From contig CM049316.1 in NCBI GenBank assembly GCA_026874595.1, positions 23,955,839-24,019,838 on the forward strand: a DNA stretch of 64,000 nt, written 5' to 3'. The DNA comes from Sipunculus nudus (Eukaryota > Annelida > Sipuncula > Golfingiida > Sipunculidae). Positions 9,822 through 62,735 of this stretch are shown here, one piece after another. Every line of letters begins with the position of its first letter. Position 1 is the stretch's first letter. The notes under the pieces are model-generated. The model was not told the origin of the DNA, did not search any database, and saw only the letters and a program-made list of their open reading frames with translations. Made by a program: the position numbers and the translations under genes.

Positions 9822-11370
9822 ACACAACATTATATAAGACATCACGGTACAAGTAAAAGTACATAAAGTATGTGAAGATATAATATGTTTAGATAAATGT
9901 TGTATTTCTATGTAAATTCATAATCTTCATCAAAATGAAACAAGACACAAGCAATACGATTAGAAAGCAATCAATGAATAATATAATGATGTAACATGCT
10001 CTCTCATTACAATAAGTACAAAGCAAAAAAAAAAAAAAAAAACACGATAAACATATTTTCACATATTTACACTGGATGGGAAGATTAACTATTTTTATCA
10101 TGTGAAACGTTTTGTGTCTACTATAAACTCTTTTTTGTTTCCTGTTTATTCCTGGTAATATAAGGTTCTAATTCTAACTTCTCACGATCTAAATAAAATT
10201 TAATACCGCTAAACAGGTTGGTTAACCAGTTTAAACATATTATCGAGCAACCAGCACAAACTTTTCTAACCATCTTGCAAAGCTCTCAATGGATGGCGCT
10301 GTCACATACACACAAAACAAATTTCAAGCAAAACGTTCTTTCTGAGGACTTGCAAGAAACTTCCCCAGCATAGTTTTCCCGGCTTTTTAAATGCTTTAAA
10401 AATGTTTTGACAGTATTTCGTTTGCGAGGACCCATGTGTAAGTCCTGACAAGAAGAAAAAGTCCTTAAAAAGCATTAATACAGAAAAATAGCTTTCCGCT
10501 AAAGATGCATCCTTAAATCATTGCACACTTTCAGTCACACTTCGCTAATTATAAAAGTGATTCCTATTAAAATTTCAGTCACACTTCGCTCTGTGTAAAA
10601 GTGTTTCTGCCATCTTACATGCCATCCTACATGCACACTTGCATGCCAAAAGAACTGATAGTTTTTTATAGTAACGCTGTTATACTAGTATATCAGAAAC
10701 ACGACTGTGACCTTATAGGGTCATATAGGATAAGAGGGCCTAAATGCCGGAAAGTATAAGAAATTATAGACCATTTTTATAGGAAAATAAAGTGAGTGGA
10801 TTACAACCTGTAAAATATTTCATTTTTTTTCATGCATATTACTACTTATCAGTTTATAATGTGGAAAAAATCCTTTCCAACGGATTGGTACAAATTGAAA
10901 AATGTCTTTCCGTGCACGTGTTTGCCTGTCTGTCAGGCGGAATCCGTTATTATACGACACTTGTATATATATATATATATATATAAATAACCGCATCGCG
11001 ATTGCGATTGTATCAATGTATCTTGATATATCTGTCGACACAATCCTAGCAGTGTCACGGAAAATGTCATTAATTGAATTATCTCATTTTTTTTATGCAC
11101 TCGAGGTTTTAGAATTTGTTGATGTCGCCTAATGTTCCCGTGCCATACCTCTGCTAAAAGGTAATATGTATATATCGTGGTTAGTTGGTAACCTGGGGTG
11201 TCTGTCAGCAACTTTAAACACACGCACGTAAGAGAGCAACGGATTTTCATGAAATTGTGAACTGTAACAATAACATATATCCATCAATCCACAAAATTTT
11301 GTTGATAAAAGGCTGGATTACCCGACCTTGTGGTTTTTTAAAAGAATTCTTTGACATTATAATATAAGAC

Positions 11371-16911: not shown

Positions 16912-19900
16912 CTGGAACAGAAAGTTAGATTTCACCAGGTCGATCATGACTATTGTGGTGGGATATGCTTCCTTATTTTTTTAAGCTTGGGGGGGGGGGG
17001 GGGGGGGGGTTGCACTTGATCTGTTGAATCCAAACCAAACATTCGCTACCCCCCCCCACTAGAAAAAAAAAGATGATATCTGGAGAAATGTTAATTTCGA
17101 TTCCAGCCTCGACATTATCTTATCCTGACTAGAAAACCTTACAATTTTCTTAAATAAACGTATCAGAACGCAACTTAGCTTCCGGAGTAAAGATAGTTTT
17201 CATAATTAAGAATCTTAAATTATACTCTTAAATATTGCTTCACTGTTTCTATGGGACACATTAATGAATAATAAGAATAATCTGAAAAAATGTCTTTGTT
17301 TCATATACACCAGTCCATGGAAAAAATGTATTTATTTGTATATCGATTCCTGATGTCACAATCGACTGTAGTATCGATTATTGTTGATCAGAGCTATTGA
17401 AAATCGCACTGGGTTTTGTCAGAGCCATCGAAAATCGTGCGGAGCCTCGTTGAGTCTTTTATGAGTGAAACTATTGATATATCGATATATTGCGCCAACC
17501 CTATTATCACCTAAATGATATTTGCATCAAATATTGTTTAACAAGGAACACTTCCAAAGCGAACTCTTAGTTTAAAAGGAAAAGTCATGTATTACGCACA
17601 GGCTGTAATAATCATTTCGGGTTAGTTTGAGTTTTCTATGTGTCATAAGTATAACAATTTGAAGAATCTAATGATTATGGTATAACCAGTATATGATGAC
17701 ATGGATTTAAGGAAATGTTTAATTCCTCCATGATGATACAGTATACAAAAAAAGGCAAAACAAAAAGGAAATGTATAGCGGCTACTAACATATTTGTTGA
17801 AAAGACCCATTTTGTCAGATTTTGGTTCTACCCATTCTCGGACTAAAATATATAATTTACTGGTCCAGTAATATATCAATTTAAAATATATAAACTTTTA
17901 CCAATTTGTGCACTGGATACAAAATATAATTCAATAAATAATAATAATAAAAATAATATTCTTTAAATATTGCATATTACCACCGTGAAACTGTAAATTA
18001 TTTAAGAGATCGAGCACCTTGTGCTAATTAACACTTTATAAGTGTTTATGGTATGTCATCACGTGACTCACCTGCAGGTTATAGCTCCTTTGGCGCTTCT
18101 GATACCACCAGAATACGGACGTGACGGTATCCGACAGGTCTGCTCTCTGGTATTAGTTAGTGGAGTACTGGGACATGACCTGGTCACGTGATCCACGCTG
18201 GCAAAAGCCGAAAACGCCCTGCCAGGGCTTAGAAGAGAGTCTCCAGAATTCTGGTCACTATTTTTGTATTTTGAACCCTTTCGTACCTTCCCTGGATTAA
18301 AACTAGCCCTCCTGGGACTTTGCTGTATTTTGTGCATTTCAGACATTGAAACACTTATTGGAAGAGTTTGCGGGTCTATAAGGTTACTTTTTACATTGTA
18401 CCGTATAAGCGGGTGCCCGTTTATGTGTGACCCATCCGTGTTCTTGATTTTAACTCTAGGTGAATCCTCTTTCTTTTTAATTGTTTCATTTTGCTGAGTT
18501 ATAATCGGAGATGGGCTGCTTGCTCTCGAGTCTGCTCCAAATTCATGCGCGCGGCCTTCTGCAGTCAACATCCGGAAGCGCATCCATCGCTCACAAGAAG
18601 TCGCCTGCATCTCTTTCGCAACGTGAACTGGCGATTGGCCTAAAGAGTCACGTGACCTTATCCTGAAGCCTGCCTGGACCAACAGCTGGACGATATTCAG
18701 ATGATCATGCGCTGCTGCGGCGTGAAGGGCGTTTCTTCCGAATCTGCTCAATGGCTGGTTGCTCGCCCCTTAATTGATACAGACATATTATATTAAAGGT
18801 ATCAGTTGTCACTGAATATTGTTTCCGTCTTTCCGAGCTGTTCCAACTTTTCTTAAGATTTACCCAATGTTCACCTTAGACTCTATGCGATTTTCTCATA
18901 CATATTGTCAAGTAAAATATGTACATATATTGTTCATATATATCGTTTAATATGTGTTGATTATTAGGATATAGAAAATTTAAAAGAATTTATTTGTGCC
19001 AAGAGTTTTCTAAATCACATTAATTAAACGTACATATGATACAGGTTATAAACTTATATAAAATTTTGATTTCTAGATTAAGGTCAATTAATTCTTCCAC
19101 GTAACACTCCAAGTTGAACACTGAAAAAATGTGCAATTTTTTAAAACTTTCTTTTGGATTGGCTAAAGAGATGAGAAGCAAAAACTATATATTTCCAATT
19201 TTTCCTAATTGAGATGCTTAAAACTAAACGATGTCCTCTAAGCTCAAAATATCTGCACATTTAAGTAGCAACTGTTCAAGAAGAGTGAGGCTGAAGTAAA
19301 TTATATTTACCTCGAAATTACGATCTCCAATGGGACCTCGATACAGTGGTCGCATTTTCGAGGTGGTCGTCTAAGCAATGTCTTATATAAAGAGCAAATC
19401 AATGGGGACCGTAAACAAGTGGTCTTTAATTTGAGATTATCACTTAACTGAGGTGGTCGTTAGGCAAAGTCTTACCTGTTCTTAATAAAGCGCTGCACAG
19501 CTTGAAATGTCCTAGACCGGCAGCCATGAAGAGCGCCGCCTGGAGGCGTAGCGACTTCCTACCACCAGGCGGCGCTGTATCACAACCCTTGTATCCTTCG
19601 CCAGTTCCTGGCTCAGATCTCTCAACAAAATGGATGACCTGACGGAAACAAGTTAAAGAATGGTCATTCGATTCTCAGAAGAAACAAGTACAAGAAATAA
19701 GCTGGGAGGAAAACGGAGTAATATAGACATTCATTTTACAATGATTTATACAGGATACAGGAACTAAAGGCCAATTTGAACTGAACCCAGTAGTTTTAAT
19801 GGTGTATATTTTGAATTTTTGCGCCCTGCCCTGACTATGTATAACATCACATCATAAAATCCGTTTTATATGTGCTTTTCATCTTTTCAAAGAAACTTAC

Positions 19901-28050: not shown

Positions 28051-28690
28051 TGACTCTGACTGGGACTCGAGGGTCCTGGACTCTGAATTGGACTCGAGGG
28101 TCTGAGACTTGAACTTGGACCCAAGGATCCTTGACTCTGACTTGGATTCGAGGGTCCTGGACTCTGACTTGGACTCAAGGGTCCTGGACTCTGACATGGA
28201 CTCGAGGGTCCTAGACTCTGACTTGGACTCGAGGGTGCTGCAACCTGACTTGGACTCGAAGGTCCTGGACTCTGACTTAGACTGGAGGGTGCTGGACACT
28301 GGCTTGGAGTCTAGGGTGTTGGACTCTGACTTGTATTCGAACTCGGAGGTAAAGACTCGAGAAATCTCGAGTCAAACAGAAAAACAAACTATTACGAGAA
28401 TATAACAAAATCAACACAATATAAACACCAAACTTCAGCTTTGCACCAGAGGTCAAATGTAATTAATGATTACAGGAAAGGTATGTAAAACTAACTTAAC
28501 AATGGACATGATGATCTTAAATTTCCATTTTCCTCGGATGCAACCTTGGACTCGGGATCCAAAATAACTTGGACAAGAAACTAAGATGGACTTGGAATCA
28601 AACCTCACGGACTCAGACTTGGACTAGAGTGGCTTGGACTGGAGCTTGCACTCTGACTCGGATGGCCTGGACTCTACAACCTCACTTATA
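28051..28690 (+). repeat. GACTCGGA-rich dispersed element, copy 1, with 27 bp minisatellite
   Basis: 28051-28350 is about 11 copies of a 27 bp unit (gggtcctggactctgacttg then gactcga). As 27 is nine codons, spurious repeat frames run on both strands. Then come aatctcgagtcaaacag, a unique middle, aaacttcagctttgcacc, and a second degenerate GACTTGGACTC block ending gactcggatggcctggac. Copies 2-5 share this order. Confidence 0.75.
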
Positions 28691-49055: not shown

Positions 49056-50731
49056 TGTCTTGTTTGTTTACACAGTGACAACTGTTTGTTTAAGATGATT
49101 CCCACAAACTATTAACTGTTGTTTTGTAGGGTCTGCTGTGGTACCTGGACACTATCAGCGATTCAGACTTGCTTCCACCTGCAAAACTTAAACTAAATAC
49201 TATCAGGTTAAGAAATAACGTTTTCAACGTTAATGTGACTCTGCCTTGTGACCATTCGATCCCGCTAATTGAAATATTCAAAGATGCTGTAACATCATCA
49301 GTTAACACGTACCAAGCAATATGGGTAAATAAACAAGGACATTTAGCACAGCGCCTCGATGCCTACGTTCAGGCGTTAAAGAGCGCTAGAAGTTCCTTAG
49401 TTAAGCTCGCCTTACGGTGTCCATGGGTATCACCGGAAGCTGTCACTGACGTCATTAACGGCAATTCCCGTTTAAATTATCTTAGCGACGTTTCTGCTTC
49501 CGGTCACGTGCTGCCAATCGTGTTGCCATGGTTACACATTAAATCGGAACAAAATAACATGACATCTCAGTATGACGAAAGCAACCTCTTAATTAAAAAA
49601 TATTACCAGTGGACGGCGTCACCAAATTCTTGTACATTTATAAAAAGCGCATCAAATAGGTTCCGATGGGATATTGTATTCAACCATTATTGTTCGTCAG
49701 ATACAAACCTTCTGCGGGTACCTAAATCTATGGAATACGAGATTCTGAACGTGCGGCCGATAAATGAGAAATATATTCCATTTTACCCTTCCCATTTCTA
49801 TACTGACCCTCCCCAGCACCTGAGTTATATACTAATGGCTACAGGTGTGTTCATAACCTCAACAGGTGAGATATATACAAAAAATACAACATTATTCCCT
49901 GCTACATGCCTGGGTTACAACAGATTAGAGCAACCTGACAGGATAAAAAAATACAACTTATATGATGAGGTTTTTACAATATCGCAGTTTTGGGGAGCAA
50001 AATTTTTTCACATGCATGTTGAGAACTTTCCGCGATTGGCTCCATTTGTGCAGTTTCTCCGAGACCACCCTGAGATAAAGCTCCACCTAGCGGATAACAA
50101 AGTATTTACTCGCAGCTTAGTGCAAGTGCTTGGCATTGCGCCGAATCGTATTGTGTTGGGGAACGTGAGAGCAAAAATAGGATACATGCCGGAGACTACC
50201 TACTGCGGTATAGCCCACCCGCTAAATGTTCAGCTTCTGTCACAGTATTACAGGGAGAAAATTCGCGAAATGCATCCTGGAATAAACAGAGATACAATCT
50301 TGTTGATACGGAGATCAAGATTAAGACAATTTGCAAAGCAAAACCAGATTGCGGAAATAATACAAAATATAGCCCAAGAGCATCACGTACGTTACGAATT
50401 ATTTCGAGATGATCCACCATCTGGACTTAACGCGACCATGCAGTCGTTTAATAGAGCGATAATGGTGATCGGCCCTCACGGAGGCGGACTGTCCAATTTA
50501 CTGTTCTCTGAACCCGGAACTTACGTCATAGAGGGAATGTGTAATAAACACCACATCCACATGTGTTACACCAGACTGGCCTACCTTCTCGGTCTGCGCT
50601 GGCACGGCGTGGCTGAAGTGAGCAATGGCTGTCATAAAGTAGTGGACATCAACGTCAGAACTTTGGAAGATACCGTACGGACACTTTTAAAACAAGCAAT
50701 ATCAGAAACTAAGATACCTCCAGCCGTGTGA
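48250..50731 (+). CDS. GT61-family glycosyltransferase, type II membrane protein, 2 exons
   Basis: Exon 1 (48250-48309) and exon 2 (49130-50731) join in phase 0 through donor CTG|gtaagt and acceptor gttgttttgtag, giving 553 residues. Exon 1 reads MTKRQRVFRCLSCTTLVSIL, and exon 2 continues GLLWYLDTISDSD. The join builds a basic cytosolic stub and a hydrophobic anchor (residues about 10-26), the arrangement of a Golgi or ER type II enzyme. An in-frame TAA lies at 48217, so the start is well defined. The C-terminal half (about 250-535) matches GT61: FFHMHVENFPRL (residues about 312-323), an RRSRLRQF segment, and the signature GPHGGGLSNLLFSEPGTYVI around residue 470. Candidate N-glycosylation sites include NVT, NMT, NTT and NAT. 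GT61 includes EOGT, POMGNT2 and plant xylosyltransferases; donor sugar and acceptor cannot be read here. Nearly the whole enzyme lies in one exon. Confidence 0.93.
48317..48386. repeat. (TA)n in GT61 intron
   Basis: Begins about eight bases after the exon 1 donor, so its length could affect splicing. Confidence 0.95.
48978..49053. repeat. (CA)n(TA)n in GT61 intron
   Basis: Ends about 75 bases before the exon 2 acceptor. Confidence 0.95.
49130..50731 (+). CDS. Exon 2 of GT61 gene (lumenal and catalytic part)
   Basis: This is one open frame from GGT at the acceptor to TGA at 50729-50731. The TAG inside the acceptor closes the same frame immediately upstream, which confirms that this is a splice boundary. 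There is no ATG for about 430 bases, so exon 2 cannot supply the normal start. Confidence 0.93.
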   Translation, partial: GLLWYLDTISDSDLLPPAKLKLNTIRLRNNVFNVNVTLPCDHSIPLIEIFKDAVTSSVNTYQAIWVNKQGHLAQRLDAYVQALKSARSSLVKLALRCPWVSPEAVTDVINGNSRLNYLSDVSASGHVLPIVLPWLHIKSEQNNMTSQYDESNLLIKKYYQWTASPNSCTFIKSASNRFRWDIVFNHYCSSDTNLLRVPKSMEYEILNVRPINEKYIPFYPSHFYTDPPQHLSYILMATGVFITSTGEIYTKNTTLFPATCLGYNRLEQPDRIKKYNLYDEVFTISQFWGAKFFHMHVENFPRLAPFVQFLRDHPEIKLHLADNKVFTRSLVQVLGIAPNRIVLGNVRAKIGYMPETTYCGIAHPLNVQLLSQYYREKIREMHPGINRDTILLIRRSRLRQFAKQNQIAEIIQNIAQEHHVRYELFRDDPPSGLNATMQSFNRAIMVIGPHGGGLSNLLFSEPGTYVIEGMCNKHHIHMCYTRLAYLLGLRWHGVAEVSNGCHKVVDINVRTLEDTVRTLLKQAISETKIPPAV

Positions 50732-56795: not shown

Positions 56796-57052
56796 CTAAT
56801 CGGGACAATAATCCCACAGGTGGCAGCACGGTCTGAACAGGATAGTTAAACATTTGTATTCCCAGCGACAATACGAGCACGACCGTCGCCAGTTACATGG
56901 TCTTAATATACGCCTACAGCAGACTGTATTACATATACCGTGAGCCCTGTACCACACCGCGTCTGTAATGTAGTGACCATGGCATCCTCTATGTCTGAGG
57001 CATACGTAGGGTAACACCCCTCGCTTGGACCGAAGATGGGCGCCTGGACCAT
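56796..57052 (-). CDS. Terminal exon: processing site and 12-Cys peptide
   Basis: A strong polypyrimidine acceptor (ttctttcttccgtcag) joins in phase 1 and opens GPGAHLRSKR. The predicted released peptide (codons 57020-56799, 74 residues) starts GVLPYVC. Cysteine spacing is C-x5-C-x16-C-x3-CC-x6-C-x5-C-x2-C-x5-C-x7-CC-x5-C. It is cationic (10 Arg and 1 Lys against 4 acidic residues) and rich in Trp, Tyr and His. Chondromodulin also ends in a Cys-rich, CC-containing domain with PC(S/N)W near its end; here PCNW recurs, but the cysteine count is higher. Confidence 0.85.
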
Positions 57053-60000
57053 CTGACGGAAGAAAGAAGAGAAAGAAAAATAGTTTCTTCCCGAATAAAG
57101 GTCTCATATTAGGCCCAAACTTCCATTTATAAGCATCAATATTTCATTTTAGCAAACATATGAATCATAACCATACATGTGTATTTAAAGTAAAATAAAA
57201 ATGAAATAATAATACATATTTTTGCCCTTCTCCCTATAAAAAATCCATTCATATAAACTAATGTATCATTGATCCATAAAATGATGCTGTATATATTATT
57301 TTTCTAACCTATTCTGTCTTTTAACAAAACCATAATAAACAAAAACTGTTAAGTTCGAAATTCCTGATGGATTTAAAATATTCTTTAGAAATTATATTCA
57401 TGAGGTTGTCACATGCAGATCACTTCTGAAATACATCAAAGGTAAATCATTGCATAAAGGACATGCTATAAAACGACTCGTCTTCTAAAATAATGTGACA
57501 AAGGCGATACGAGTATAATCACTCTTCTTCACTATTCTTGTGTTTGCCGACCTGATTCTATGGAGAGTTTGTTTTTGCAGCATTTCAACTGAGCTAGTGC
57601 CTTGATTTTTTTTATTAATATTGTACATACAATAAATAGTTTTCAACAGTTAACAATGATTTTAAGATTCCATATTAATATGGAAAAGAAAGATTATTAA
57701 TTTTGTTCGACAGACCTTAACTGTGATGTAGGTCACGTGTCCGGATTCGAGTCCACATTTAGCGACTTGGACTCGTGGGTTCTGGATTGGGATCCAAGAA
57801 ATCCATCTCGCGTAGAGTACGTAAAAGCTCTGTCACATACTATTTTAAAGACTTATTAGCTGAATATAAGTCCTTACAAGACTTTACCAAGCTTAAATTC
57901 AGCATCGGGGGCTACATTTAGTCGAACAGTGAGCTATAAAGCGTGTGTTAACTAATATATTAATATTATATATTAAAATATTATATATTAATACTGGACT
58001 CGAACTGGGACTCAGATTCGAATTGACCCGGACTCGAAGAAGATGGACTATGGGTCGAACCTCAAGGACTCAGACTTGCACTTGGACTCGGATGGTGTAG
58101 ACTGGACTATACCGCTTGACCTGATTGAAGTTAATATTGGTCCACCATAAAGTTTGTATCACATAAATCTAGTATAGTATTCGTTTTAATTATGTATGTA
58201 TATATCATTAGTAATCAGATATGCCTTATAGTGTGATTCCCGCATTAATGTATCTTTATAAAGCCTTCATTCTTAAATACATACATATATTTATATATAT
58301 ATATATATATGTTACAGTTAATGTCTGAGTTTAGGGAATACACGTATTCCCTAACACTTTCAGTAAATACGTGTAATTACTGATTCACTCAGGGAATAGG
58401 CGTATTTTCTGAAAGTCTAGGAAATACGTGTATTTCCTAAATTTAGGGGGCATTTTCTACCGAGATTTACTGAAGAAGTTTCAGTGAATGTAAGCAGAAT
58501 GTATAGGTGGTCTCTCTTTAGGTGATCGCCCTGGTTTCTTCAATAACATGGTTTACTGAAGGTTTTTTTTTTTCTCAAGTGACTGCTCTGATGACTTCAT
58601 TTCCATGATTGACTCAAAGGGTTTCAGTGAAGTACAGATACAGACCGCTGATCCCAGATTTTGCTATGAATTTTGCAGATGTTGTATGAATTATTTAATA
58701 TGCTTGTAAAAATGTTCACATTTTGAGAAAATACACCGGGAACGTCGAACGGGTGAAAATCCTGTTTCTATTGTCCTAGAATTAACAGTTTCTGTCATGA
58801 TAATGCAAAAGGTCTCCTATTATTCATAATTCTATGATTTATGGATAACACTAAAGTTTCTGTAAATATTTATATTATTAAACTTTCATAAATACATTTA
58901 TGTACTTGTATTATACTCAACTATGTCGGAGGGAATAAAGATTTTCATCATCTTTAGTCCTGAAAAAGATTATTTTTATCTCATTAACTCAATTTCTTAC
59001 ATGGTATCGGCGTGGTAACCTCTTCGTCAGCGTGACTGCCAGGGGTCTGCTCCGGGTTCAGCCAGAACATGGACAGACCACTACACATGTCGCTGATTCG
59101 CTGACCAAGGAAATACGTATCTTTGATTGGTTCTTCGGCTGGGCTGAGTACCGCCTGGTCGTCGGGATCAGGTTGGACGTCTGTGTCATTCTTTATCTAC
59201 ATGAACAATACAATGATACTTGCCACGCATAATATATCATTATATAATTCTGCTGAATTAACGTAATTGTAAGAGATGCACGGTACTATTTCATTGTTAT
59301 CCATATATAGTTTCTTAATGGCATATCAAACTGGAAAAAAATCTTCAAAACAAGCCGCAATGTGTTTGTGTGTGATTTTTGGGGAGGGGGTCGGTTCCCA
59401 ATTGTTGGATTCTGCCAAAACCGTGTTTGCATTCAGTCATTCAGCCCATATAAGGTCATTCTTGCTTAAGTGACTATCGATTTATGTCTATTCTTTTATG
59501 ACGTTTCTGAATCCGGATCGTTAGCCAAATATACACCGAACTCTTATATATTCTTCGGTGTCCCATTTTCTCTTAATACTCTATTCTCATTCAATATGAT
59601 AATTTTATGAGATGCCGTGATTGCGTGTTGTGAATATGAAAGGGGATGAACGGTTACCTTCCTGACGAAGGCCAAAATGTATTCCAATCAAGGTCATTCA
59701 ATAGAACGTGCATGCTAGCATTCACCCGTGCTCGTTATTTAGACAATATATTTTGTTAACCAGTTTGTGTTATAAAAACATTAATGATAACACGTACCGG
59801 GTGTGTCTTCATGTATCTCTCCAGGGTTGCCGGGTCGACACTGGAGTTTCTGTTCATTGGTGACACGTAGCAAGCTCCCTCACCCTCAGCCGGACGACTT
59901 ACTATCACCGTGAGGCCCTGGATAAAAATATTGATAGCAGTGATGTAAAACTCGAGTCCGGACTCGAGTTCACTTATTATAGGACTGGGTCTCGGACTTG

Positions 60001-61601
60001 TACTCGGATTCGGAGGTAAGTACTCGAGATATCAAGACAAATCCATCTCGAGTCCAGGAGGAAAAACACATTCGGTCACATATTATAAAGACATAAAAAA
60101 AGCAAACTACGAACAAAATATTAACAAAAAGCACCATTTATTTCCCGAACTTTAGCTCTGCATCCAGAGAGATATGTTACTAATAGCATGTGTAGACTAA
60201 CATAAAACTATACATGATTAACTGAAATTTCCATTTTGTATTTCCTTCTAAGGATGTTTGTGTATAACTTGGACTTGGACTCAGGTTACAAATGACTCGG
60301 ACTTGGACTCAGGTTACAAATGACTCGGACTTGGACTCAGGTTACAAATGACTCGGACTTGGACTCAGGTTACAAATGACTCGGACTTGGACTCGAGTCG
60401 ACTCGGACTCGCACTCGGATGGTGTGGACTTGAAAACATCACTAATAATAATAGTATACCAAAATTGATCAAAACTGATAAAATTTATATAAATCCTGTA
60501 AACACCAATGTTTCTGTCGATTTACACTCATATACACACTCATGGGTATCAAAGGTATTGTTAATAGCGTTTCTTAGTGTAGAATATTTTTAGGAGAAAA
60601 AAATATAGCCACACCTTAGAGGAGTGGTTAAAATAGTGGAAAGTATACACGAACATCCATACACATTTATATATTAATAAAACATTCATTAATTTTTCCT
60701 TTTGAGGTGTGTGTTCTTGTCGCCTTTCTTGCTCAATGCATTGGTTTATTTCTGAACTCGTTAAAAACTGTTCTTGTTTCATTTTTTTTTATTCTTGGTT
60801 TAATAACATTTACAGTCTATATGATGTTAATTACTTACCTATTTTAAGTCGTCGAAGACTGGGTTCTAGTTGCTTTTCATACTGTATGTACATGTATTTT
60901 TCTTTATATTGTTTTATTTACAGTCTGTCTGATATTTACTCACTTTTTTGAAGTCGTTGAAGACTGTGTTCTGGTCTCCCTTTTTGTTCTTGGTGTTCAT
61001 CTCTGTAGTATTGGATTTGATATCTGTCTTGATTGTCTCCTGGACCTGTTCCCCTTTGACCTTGAACTGAAACTGGAAAATCTAAAACGAGAAAGCACAC
61101 TACCTGTTATTCTATTTTTCCCACGATATAACAACAGAAAAGTAAATTGGAAAAGTTGAGCTATGTCTAGCAAATGAACCATGACTTTTCTTTCATGCCA
61201 CTTAAGAACAGACTTTGATGCTGGTCAGACCAACAGTTTAGATTTTAAAGTCTTTTCATTACTAATCAGGCTATAGGAGCATTTAAAGAAGCAAGAAAAA
61301 AAGCCCATTTTCTTCGAACAATAGTGGAATTAAATTTAATGATTCCGAAATAATTACTATTAAACCTGCAGTTTCCTATCAATGCCTATGAATGAACCTC
61401 TAATTCATTATCCAAGACTACTTCTGGAGTTCTCACCTTAACGAGATTATCCGAGACTTCTTTTGTCGTCTGGTTCATTAGTGCCACTCCCACCGGAAAA
61501 CCACCCATAACTAACGCTACCACGACGACAGTTGTCATGGCGATAAGCACGTTTTTTTCCATGCATTTTGATTTTCTACCTTCAGACCCATCGGCAATGA
61601 A
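56796..61601 (-). CDS. BRICHOS-domain type II membrane precursor (chondromodulin/tenomodulin-like), 5 exons seen
   Basis: Exons, in transcript order: 61601-61437, 61081-60944, 59917-59798, 59196-59001, 57052-56796; phases 0, 0, 0, 1 with GT-AG borders. From the ATG at 61562 the protein has 278 residues. A membrane helix (VLIAMTTVVVVALVMGGFPV, about 5-24) follows a four-residue stub. A linker with NQT and NTT sites leads to the BRICHOS domain (about 80-178): VFNDFKKGLTVIV, the CYV cysteine (104), and IKDTYFLGQRISDMCSGLSM with the paired cysteine (166), then FWLNP. This closely follows the chondromodulin/tenomodulin pattern (NDF.NGI.., CY, KD..FL...V.ELC..LPIFWL). The last exon gives LRSKR, a furin-type site, then a 74-residue peptide with 12 Cys. 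By family analogy the BRICHOS part assists folding and the peptide is shed. Exon 1 is open back to its acceptor, so the true start may lie upstream; my range includes those 13 codons. Confidence 0.88.
57730..58110 (+). repeat. GACTCGGA-rich element, copy 4, in BRICHOS intron
   Basis: Contains gattcgagtccaca, aagaaatccatctcgcg, aagcttaaattcagcatc, then gactcggatggtgtagactg. It lies in intron 57053-59000. Confidence 0.65.
58331..58445. repeat. Cluster of four palindromes of one type
   Basis: TTAGGGAATACACGTATTCC then CTAA (58331-58354), a gtaaatacgtgtaattac palindrome, a cagggaataggcgtattttc copy, and taggaaatacgtgtatttcc. All are variants of one GGAATACGTATTCC-like inverted repeat, spaced about 30-35 bases apart, in the large BRICHOS intron. 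Confidence 0.65.
59001..59196 (-). CDS. BRICHOS exon with second conserved Cys
   Basis: 65 codons plus one base, acceptor ttcatgtag, donor CCAT|gtaaga. It contains IKDTYFLGQRISDMCSGLSM then FWLNP, the C-terminal helix and strand of BRICHOS, followed by an acidic spacer. Reading through the donor would give a short tail and stop (PCKKLS), a possible alternative end. Confidence 0.88.
59380..59625 (-). repeat. Repeat family R, copy R4, within BRICHOS intron
   Basis: Inverted and more diverged. Contains tgtttgcattcagtcattc, tttctgaatccggatcg and ttttatgagatgccgtgatt. It overlaps intron 59197-59797. Confidence 0.45.
59798..59917 (-). CDS. BRICHOS exon with first conserved Cys
   Basis: Forty codons in phase 0 between acceptor tttatccag and donor CCG|gtacgt. 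GLTVIV strand, then ACYVSPMNRNSSVDP; the Cys is the first of the invariant BRICHOS pair. Confidence 0.88.
59945..60440 (+). repeat. GACTCGGA-rich element, copy 5, in BRICHOS intron
   Basis: The most complete copy: actcgagtccggactcgag, caaatccatctcgagtccag, aactttagctctgcatcc, then four to five 28 bp units (acttggactcaggttacaaa then tgactcgg; about 60272-60410), ending gactcggatggtgtggact. It lies in intron 59918-60943. Confidence 0.75.
60944..61081 (-). CDS. Linker exon of BRICHOS gene
   Basis: Acceptor tctcgttttag, donor AAAAAA|gtgagt. Its 46 residues include a Lys-rich, Asn-glycosylatable segment (KSNTTEMNTKNKK), and it ends in NTVFNDFKK, the start of BRICHOS. Confidence 0.85.
61437..61601 (-). 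CDS. Membrane-anchor exon of BRICHOS gene
   Basis: Acceptor gcgatttttttatag, donor GTTAAG|gtgaga. It encodes FIADGSEGRKSKC, then MEKN and the hydrophobic helix. Either the Met at 61562 is the start, with the upstream part as 5' UTR, or an upstream exon supplies more cytosolic residues. Confidence 0.82.
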
Positions 61602-62563: not shown

Positions 62564-62735
62564 ACTCTCGGCCCCAGAGACACTCGTCCCAGAGACACTC
62601 GGCCCCAGCGACTCTCGGCCCCAGAGACACTCGGCCCCTGAGACGCTCGGCCCCAGAGACACTCGGCCCCAGCGACTCTCGGCCCCAGAGACACTCGGCC
62701 CCTGAGACGCTCGGTCCCAGAGACACTCGGCCCAG
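62564..62735. repeat. 16 bp GC-rich minisatellite with 48 bp higher order
   Basis: Units ggccccagagacactc, ggccccagcgactctc and ggcccctgagacgctc alternate, so a 48 bp trio repeats. Strikingly GC-rich against AT-rich surroundings. The repeating Gly-Arg-Ala-type frames are a by-product. Confidence 0.8.

Follow-up and report, generated by a model that had tools for sequence, protein, structure and literature searches.

The stretch of DNA analysed here, called the window, comprises 64 000 nucleotides of the Sipunculus nudus genome (C11:23955839-24019838; the genome is 1.43 Gb in 153 contigs). On its minus strand we found a gene of five exons spanning 61601-56796, as given in a preliminary description of the same DNA; the exons join in frame across four GT-AG introns (phases 0, 0, 0 and 1) into 291 codons ending with a TAG stop (Table 1). 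The phase and frame of the last exon were confirmed by the peptide exons of sister genes, which agreed with it in acceptor phase, cleavage site and in-register Cys residues; given this agreement, transcripts that skip the last exon or read it in another frame, an outcome the preliminary description had allowed for, appear unlikely. Judging from four sister genes, a further first coding exon likely lies upstream of exon A. Similarity to the sister genes did not reveal such an exon (exon 0) for the window gene, thus the N-terminus of the predicted protein is provisional, the in-frame Met being residue 14.

Table 1. Parts of the five-exon BRICHOS gene, in window coordinates
Feature	Position	Strand	Remark
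Exon A, cytoplasmic end and signal anchor	61437..61601	-	AG acceptor before, GT donor after
Hydrophobic segment VLIAMTTVVVVALVMGGFP, residues 18-36, probable type II anchor	61494..61550	-	Kyte-Doolittle mean 2.3
Exon B, linker and start of BRICHOS	60944..61081	-	
Exon C, first half of BRICHOS, first conserved Cys at residue 117	59798..59917	-	
Exon D, second half of BRICHOS, second conserved Cys at residue 179, then acidic spacer; donor phase 1	59001..59196	-	
Exon E (last exon): cleavage site, peptide, stop	56796..57052	-	Identical acceptor phase in sister genes
RSKR, proprotein-convertase type cleavage site, residues 214-217	57021..57032	-	First R and final KR invariant in 9/9 aligned copies
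Mature 74-residue peptide, 12 Cys, charge ~+7	56799..57020	-	
CC...CC stretch, mature residues 34-66, putative beta-hairpin	56823..56921	-	Cys pairs 34/65, 42/57 and 48/51 equidistant from one turn
Four extra Cys, segment C-x5-C-x2-C-x5-C	56850..56897	-	Missing in the other 8 aligned copies

The intron between exons B and C carries a 28-bp minisatellite (4.6 copies, 99% match, window 60267-60394); GACT-rich units similar to it form a 27-bp array at 28052-28340, and a 16-bp GC-rich minisatellite (10.5 copies, 62567-62733) is situated ~1 kb upstream of exon A. Elsewhere in the window, a long open frame of 533 aa on the plus strand (49130-50731) matched glycosyltransferase 61 (PF04577, 44.1 bits, cut-off 27), and an open frame on the minus strand (18068-18769) contained ankyrin repeats (PF12796, 30.3 bits, cut-off 27.3) plus a long tail.

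The joined protein matched the Pfam BRICHOS family PF04089 at residues 91-186 (E 7e-15, 55.5 bits). The score is far above the gathering cut-off of 25, a curated threshold that places the protein in the BRICHOS superfamily; lack of a BRICHOS match, named in the preliminary description as a ground for giving it up, was thus not observed. Both invariant Cys residues that it reported were present (C117 and C179), as was the Asp of an NDF motif, which aligned with NDF of CNMD and HDF of ITM2B; two conserved Cys and one conserved Asp are given as hallmarks of the superfamily in PMC2751770. The type II anchor, the chondromodulin-like end of the BRICHOS domain (FWLxP follows the second Cys, as in CNMD), the basic cleavage site and the cationic 12-Cys peptide with two CC pairs all bore out what had been described. 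The product has four N-glycosylation sequons, and the pro-region was acidic in both precursors for which it was computed (the window gene and its sister copy P5). No Pfam family matched the 74-residue part; a PDB sequence search with the whole protein and with the peptide gave no match up to E 10.

A Pfam search of the genome produced nine BRICHOS matches: seven on C11, no more than ~250 kb from the window gene, and one each on C6 and C2. Exons were read from C11 24.019-24.219 Mb, from three more C11 stretches and from parts of C6 and C2. All five exons were matched, in order, in copies P2, P5, P7, P8 and P9. In P3 the frame breaks within exon C; P4 has a broken exon C and no GT after exon D, its peptide exon was not found in the stretch read, and from these features it looks like a pseudogene. 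P6 showed the peptide exon and no more than a portion of exon D, with exons A-C unmatched at E 0.01; in the damaged copy on C2, where reading was confined to exons C, D and E, the GT after exon C is missing. With the P5 peptide as query we found at least nine peptide exons in the genome, 9/9 without stops, eight on C11 (one of them at 24295626) and one on C2; the window peptide as query matched itself and P2 only. A search for relatives of the last exon in other genome and viral contigs gave 63 and 2 pattern matches, respectively, none of which was confirmed.

Two copies, P5 and P7 (C11:24125817-24130284 and C11:24178625-24183092, 52,808 bases apart), share 99.9% identity over two 2-kb stretches without gaps, with lower identity in neighbouring stretches; either the duplication is very recent or the likeness is an effect of the assembly. 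P2, P3, P4 and P5 each have a probable first coding exon (exon 0, of MADEKETPVQ type) upstream of exon A; in the same four copies a palindromic, CRE-like TGACGTCA is conserved shortly 5′ of the ATG (e.g. stretch L011 near 9920-9985). The gene on C6 (C6:13819865-13823350) is a lone divergent BRICHOS gene; its peptide, 64 residues long with 6 Cys and rich in aromatics, looks like a plain hairpin around SGG.

With P3, P4 and P6 damaged or partial, one could ask whether the window gene, at the edge of the array, is itself an outlier that is silent or in decay. Of the C11 copies read it diverges most, its peptide sharing 29-35% identity with the other aligned C11 peptides, and the failure to find exon 0 would fit as well. 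However, its five exons are open, its splice sites are clean, and its dN/dS against other copies, over those parts of exons B-D that allowed the calculation, was 0.14-0.25; we regard decay as highly improbable.

The Cys residues of the window peptide (pI 8.9) occupy mature positions 7, 13, 30, 34, 35, 42, 48, 51, 57, 65, 66 and 72. We aligned it with the peptides of the other copies, nine distinct peptide exons in all; P7, identical to P5, and the copy at 24295626 were left out. Besides the cleavage-site residues marked in Table 1, no variation is seen in this alignment at six Cys, one Arg and one Pro. The peptides of P2, P3, P5, P6, P8 and P9 have eight Cys each (positions 7, 13, 30, 34, 35, 59, 60 and 70); the C2 peptide has seven, with Ser at position 13, and the C6 peptide six. 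The window peptide retains the eight family Cys and gains those at 42, 48, 51 and 57, between both CC pairs. Thus the Cys pattern, which had not been recognised earlier, is for eight of its twelve residues the pattern of a local gene family; the remaining four are private to the window gene among the nine aligned peptides. Across the family, length varies from 64 to 74 residues and Cys number from 6 to 12; the charge is from +5.3 to +9.9 in all nine peptides read, and each peptide has 9-16 aromatic residues.

The window pairs 34/65, 42/57 and 48/51 each sum to 99, i.e. they are in one register, with the four extra Cys forming two nested pairs; when four Cys were placed in the loop at random, two such nested pairs appeared in 0.4% of trials (chance 0.004). 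A turn was sought at the midpoint between two Cys, the first of the CC and the first to come after the next Pro, in seven peptides (P8 and C2 were not run). A likely turn, QG, SG or GG, was exactly central in 6/6 peptides other than the window peptide, where the midpoint is SY, between Cys48 and Cys51; shuffled loops had a central turn in 0.2-1.1% of cases (four peptides tried). Turn position and nested Cys pairs together support a hairpin with added staples, under a register rule devised after viewing the alignment. We conclude that the centre of the window peptide is probably a beta-hairpin with extra cross-strand staples. AlphaFold2, run on the nine-peptide alignment, returned a beta-rich CC...CC part at low confidence (mean pLDDT 55.6); this low-confidence model placed strands at mature residues 43-45, 48-50 and 53-61 and did not show the proposed turn at 49-50. 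An internal repeat within the peptide was considered and rejected, as it was equalled by 736/5000 free shuffles and by 924/5000 shuffles with Cys fixed.

Many Cys and a high aromatic content are also what one could expect of a product with a structural, adhesive or glandular role, such as mucus, capsule or cuticle, that is cross-linked through Cys and supplied in quantity by a gene array, to which recent duplicates such as P5 and P7 would add. The fixed Cys register, the short released peptide and an even Cys count in 8/9 peptides read do not suit such a product; they indicate internal disulfides, and make this explanation rather improbable.

Selection on the chaperone and on the peptide was compared by pooled Nei-Gojobori dN/dS over P2, P3, P5, P8, P9 and C2 (exon C from P2, P5, P8 and C2 only); the window gene and C6 were outside the pools, and the pooled pairs are non-independent. 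The ratio was 0.19 (0.10-0.31) for BRICHOS exons C and D, 0.30 for the ten codons that open the peptide exon and 0.64 (0.42-1.01) for the whole mature peptide. Within the latter it was 0.44 for residues 1-35, 0.49 for the tail and 1.11 (0.67-2.02) for residues 36-58, the hairpin, a stretch picked after viewing the alignment and with an interval that spans 1. In codon bootstraps, the hairpin exceeded BRICHOS in 2000/2000 and residues 1-35 in 1955/2000. Inclusion of P6 gave 0.22 for the first ten codons, 0.40 for residues 1-35, 1.16 for residues 36-58 and 0.52 for the tail. Among seven copies, 1/8 Cys columns varied, in comparison with 45/63 other mature columns (p 0.002). A hairpin dN/dS near 1 could equally reflect relaxed constraint. 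The C2 and P5 peptides differ by 2 replacement and 12 silent changes, thus this peptide is under constraint as a protein. The lower dS of the BRICHOS exons (0.22 versus 0.47 for the mature peptide) hints at gene conversion there.

The preliminary description had left function open between structural, signalling and defence roles. The way selection acts, the charge and the organisation of the genes now tip the balance towards host defence, though they are no proof of it; the fit to a defence peptide comes from the precursor layout, the acidic pro-region with cationic cargo, the peptide in the last exon, the array, and fast divergence with fixed Cys. Our preferred reading, with a probability of roughly 0.55, is that the window gene encodes a disulfide-rich peptide chaperoned by BRICHOS and released by a convertase, most likely for host defence, akin to the annelid BRICHOS antimicrobial peptides. 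The precursor would be membrane-anchored or secreted, and its BRICHOS domain would chaperone the hydrophobic, disulfide-rich, cationic peptide within the secretory pathway. A furin-type convertase may then cut after RSKR and release a compact 74-residue peptide with up to six disulfides; its centre would probably be a beta-hairpin with the base clasped by CC...CC and, in the window copy alone among those read, stapled by two further cross-strand disulfides. Once released, the peptide would most likely act in defence, as do the BRICHOS-related peptides of annelids, and the array would allow the cargo to diversify while chaperone and cleavage site remain fixed.

The main competing explanation is a factor of chondromodulin/tenomodulin type, with a Cys-rich C-terminus that targets host cells or matrix, in adhesion, migration or tissue boundaries, and an array produced by expansion of that line. 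In pairwise BRICHOS comparisons with human references, z was 14.8 for CNMD and 13.2 for TNMD with the window gene, and 14.8 and 10.4, respectively, with P2; ITM2B, SP-C and GKN1 were lower for both (4.6-7.9). A separate comparison likewise placed CNMD and TNMD ahead of SP-C and ITM2B. The FWLxP motif noted above, an RxxR site and the eight Cys of the sister peptides point the same way, as does CNMD itself, where the bond C83-C99 (PMC3492907) and the pair C79/C103 nest in one register by their position sums. On the other hand, none of the six inner branches of an ML tree of BRICHOS subfamilies was starred. With Cys fixed, C-terminal similarity was not significant: 116/2000 shuffles equalled the CNMD score and 276/2000 the TNMD score; in profile comparison with CNMD/TNMD 10/200 column shuffles were as good, and the hhalign probability was 2%. 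We found no hydrophilic domain of ~50 residues between cleavage site and Cys domain, the first Cys being the seventh residue after RSKR, and in a matrix regulator one would not expect the peptide to diverge rapidly. A chondromodulin-type role is somewhat unlikely. An unlikely combination of both lines would be a fast-evolving defence system on the chondromodulin/tenomodulin BRICHOS branch, whose disulfide ladder shares its origin with the BRICHOS antimicrobial peptides and where the window gene shows in-register Cys pairs added as hairpin staples.

If the defence reading is true, a single locus shows a chaperone domain kept near-constant while its cargo gains and loses Cys and diverges. It would then be testable whether BRICHOS accepts very different disulfide-rich clients, and whether chondromodulin, tenomodulin and the polychaete antimicrobial peptides descend from one chaperoned peptide; the array supplies natural 6-, 8- and 12-Cys versions of one scaffold.

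Among known BRICHOS systems, ITM2/BRI differs from the window gene in its lower BRICHOS similarity and in its short peptide, which holds a single Cys pair. ITM2/BRI shares with the window gene the BRICHOS domain and, in ITM2A, the x16 spacing of the C-terminal pair C244/C261, matched by C13-x16-C30 of the window peptide (PMC2751770); from BRI2 a convertase releases a 23-residue peptide (PMC9714404). Chondromodulin-I and tenomodulin, the closest to the window gene by pairwise BRICHOS score, have in common with it a type II precursor, a furin-type site, a Cys-rich end with nested disulfides and a P-C-x-W motif (PMC11173128, PMC3492907, PMC3065285). Their own features are eight Cys in different spacing and a hydrophilic glycosylated domain of ~50 residues ahead of the Cys domain; a review describes this two-member family as vertebrate-only (PMC11173128).

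Polychaete precursors consist of a signal or TM segment, BRICHOS, a dibasic site and a C-terminal peptide that is mostly cationic (PMC10745061). The window precursor, with its TM/signal segment, BRICHOS, basic site and cationic C-terminal peptide, has the layout of arenicin, alvinellacin, capitellacin, nicomicin and the HfBRI series (PMC10745061); the pro-region of nicomicin is acidic too. A mini-review reports such antimicrobial peptides from polychaetes only (PMC9756803). Titles and opening lines of abstracts in the open-licence BRICHOS literature with a mollusc or tandem-duplication focus hold no account of this array. Preproalvinellacin has five introns and occurs in tandem copies, and its last exon encodes the antimicrobial peptide (PMC5431198); the window gene likewise has its peptide in the last exon and belongs to a tandem family. 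However, in alvinellacin the peptide is fixed and BRICHOS diverse (PMC5431198), the reverse of the array, where BRICHOS is fixed and the peptide varied; this counts against a simple carry-over from alvinellacin. The polychaete peptides assayed are also shorter, with few Cys (four in HfBRI-25, none in HfBRI-28), in comparison with 64-74 residues and 6-12 Cys here. AmIMP1 and AmIMP2 of Arenicola marina are, as in the window gene, BRICHOS precursors with Cys-rich C-terminal peptides (PMC10745061). The nearest published Cys-rich cases, compared by description rather than by Cys spacing, are HfBRI-75 and HfBRI-91 of Heteromastus filiformis, from BRICHOS precursors like that of the window gene: they have 11 Cys, are not pronouncedly cationic and are of unknown function according to PMC10745061. 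As these 11-Cys relatives have been reported, the kind is already known; the variant found in the window is new.
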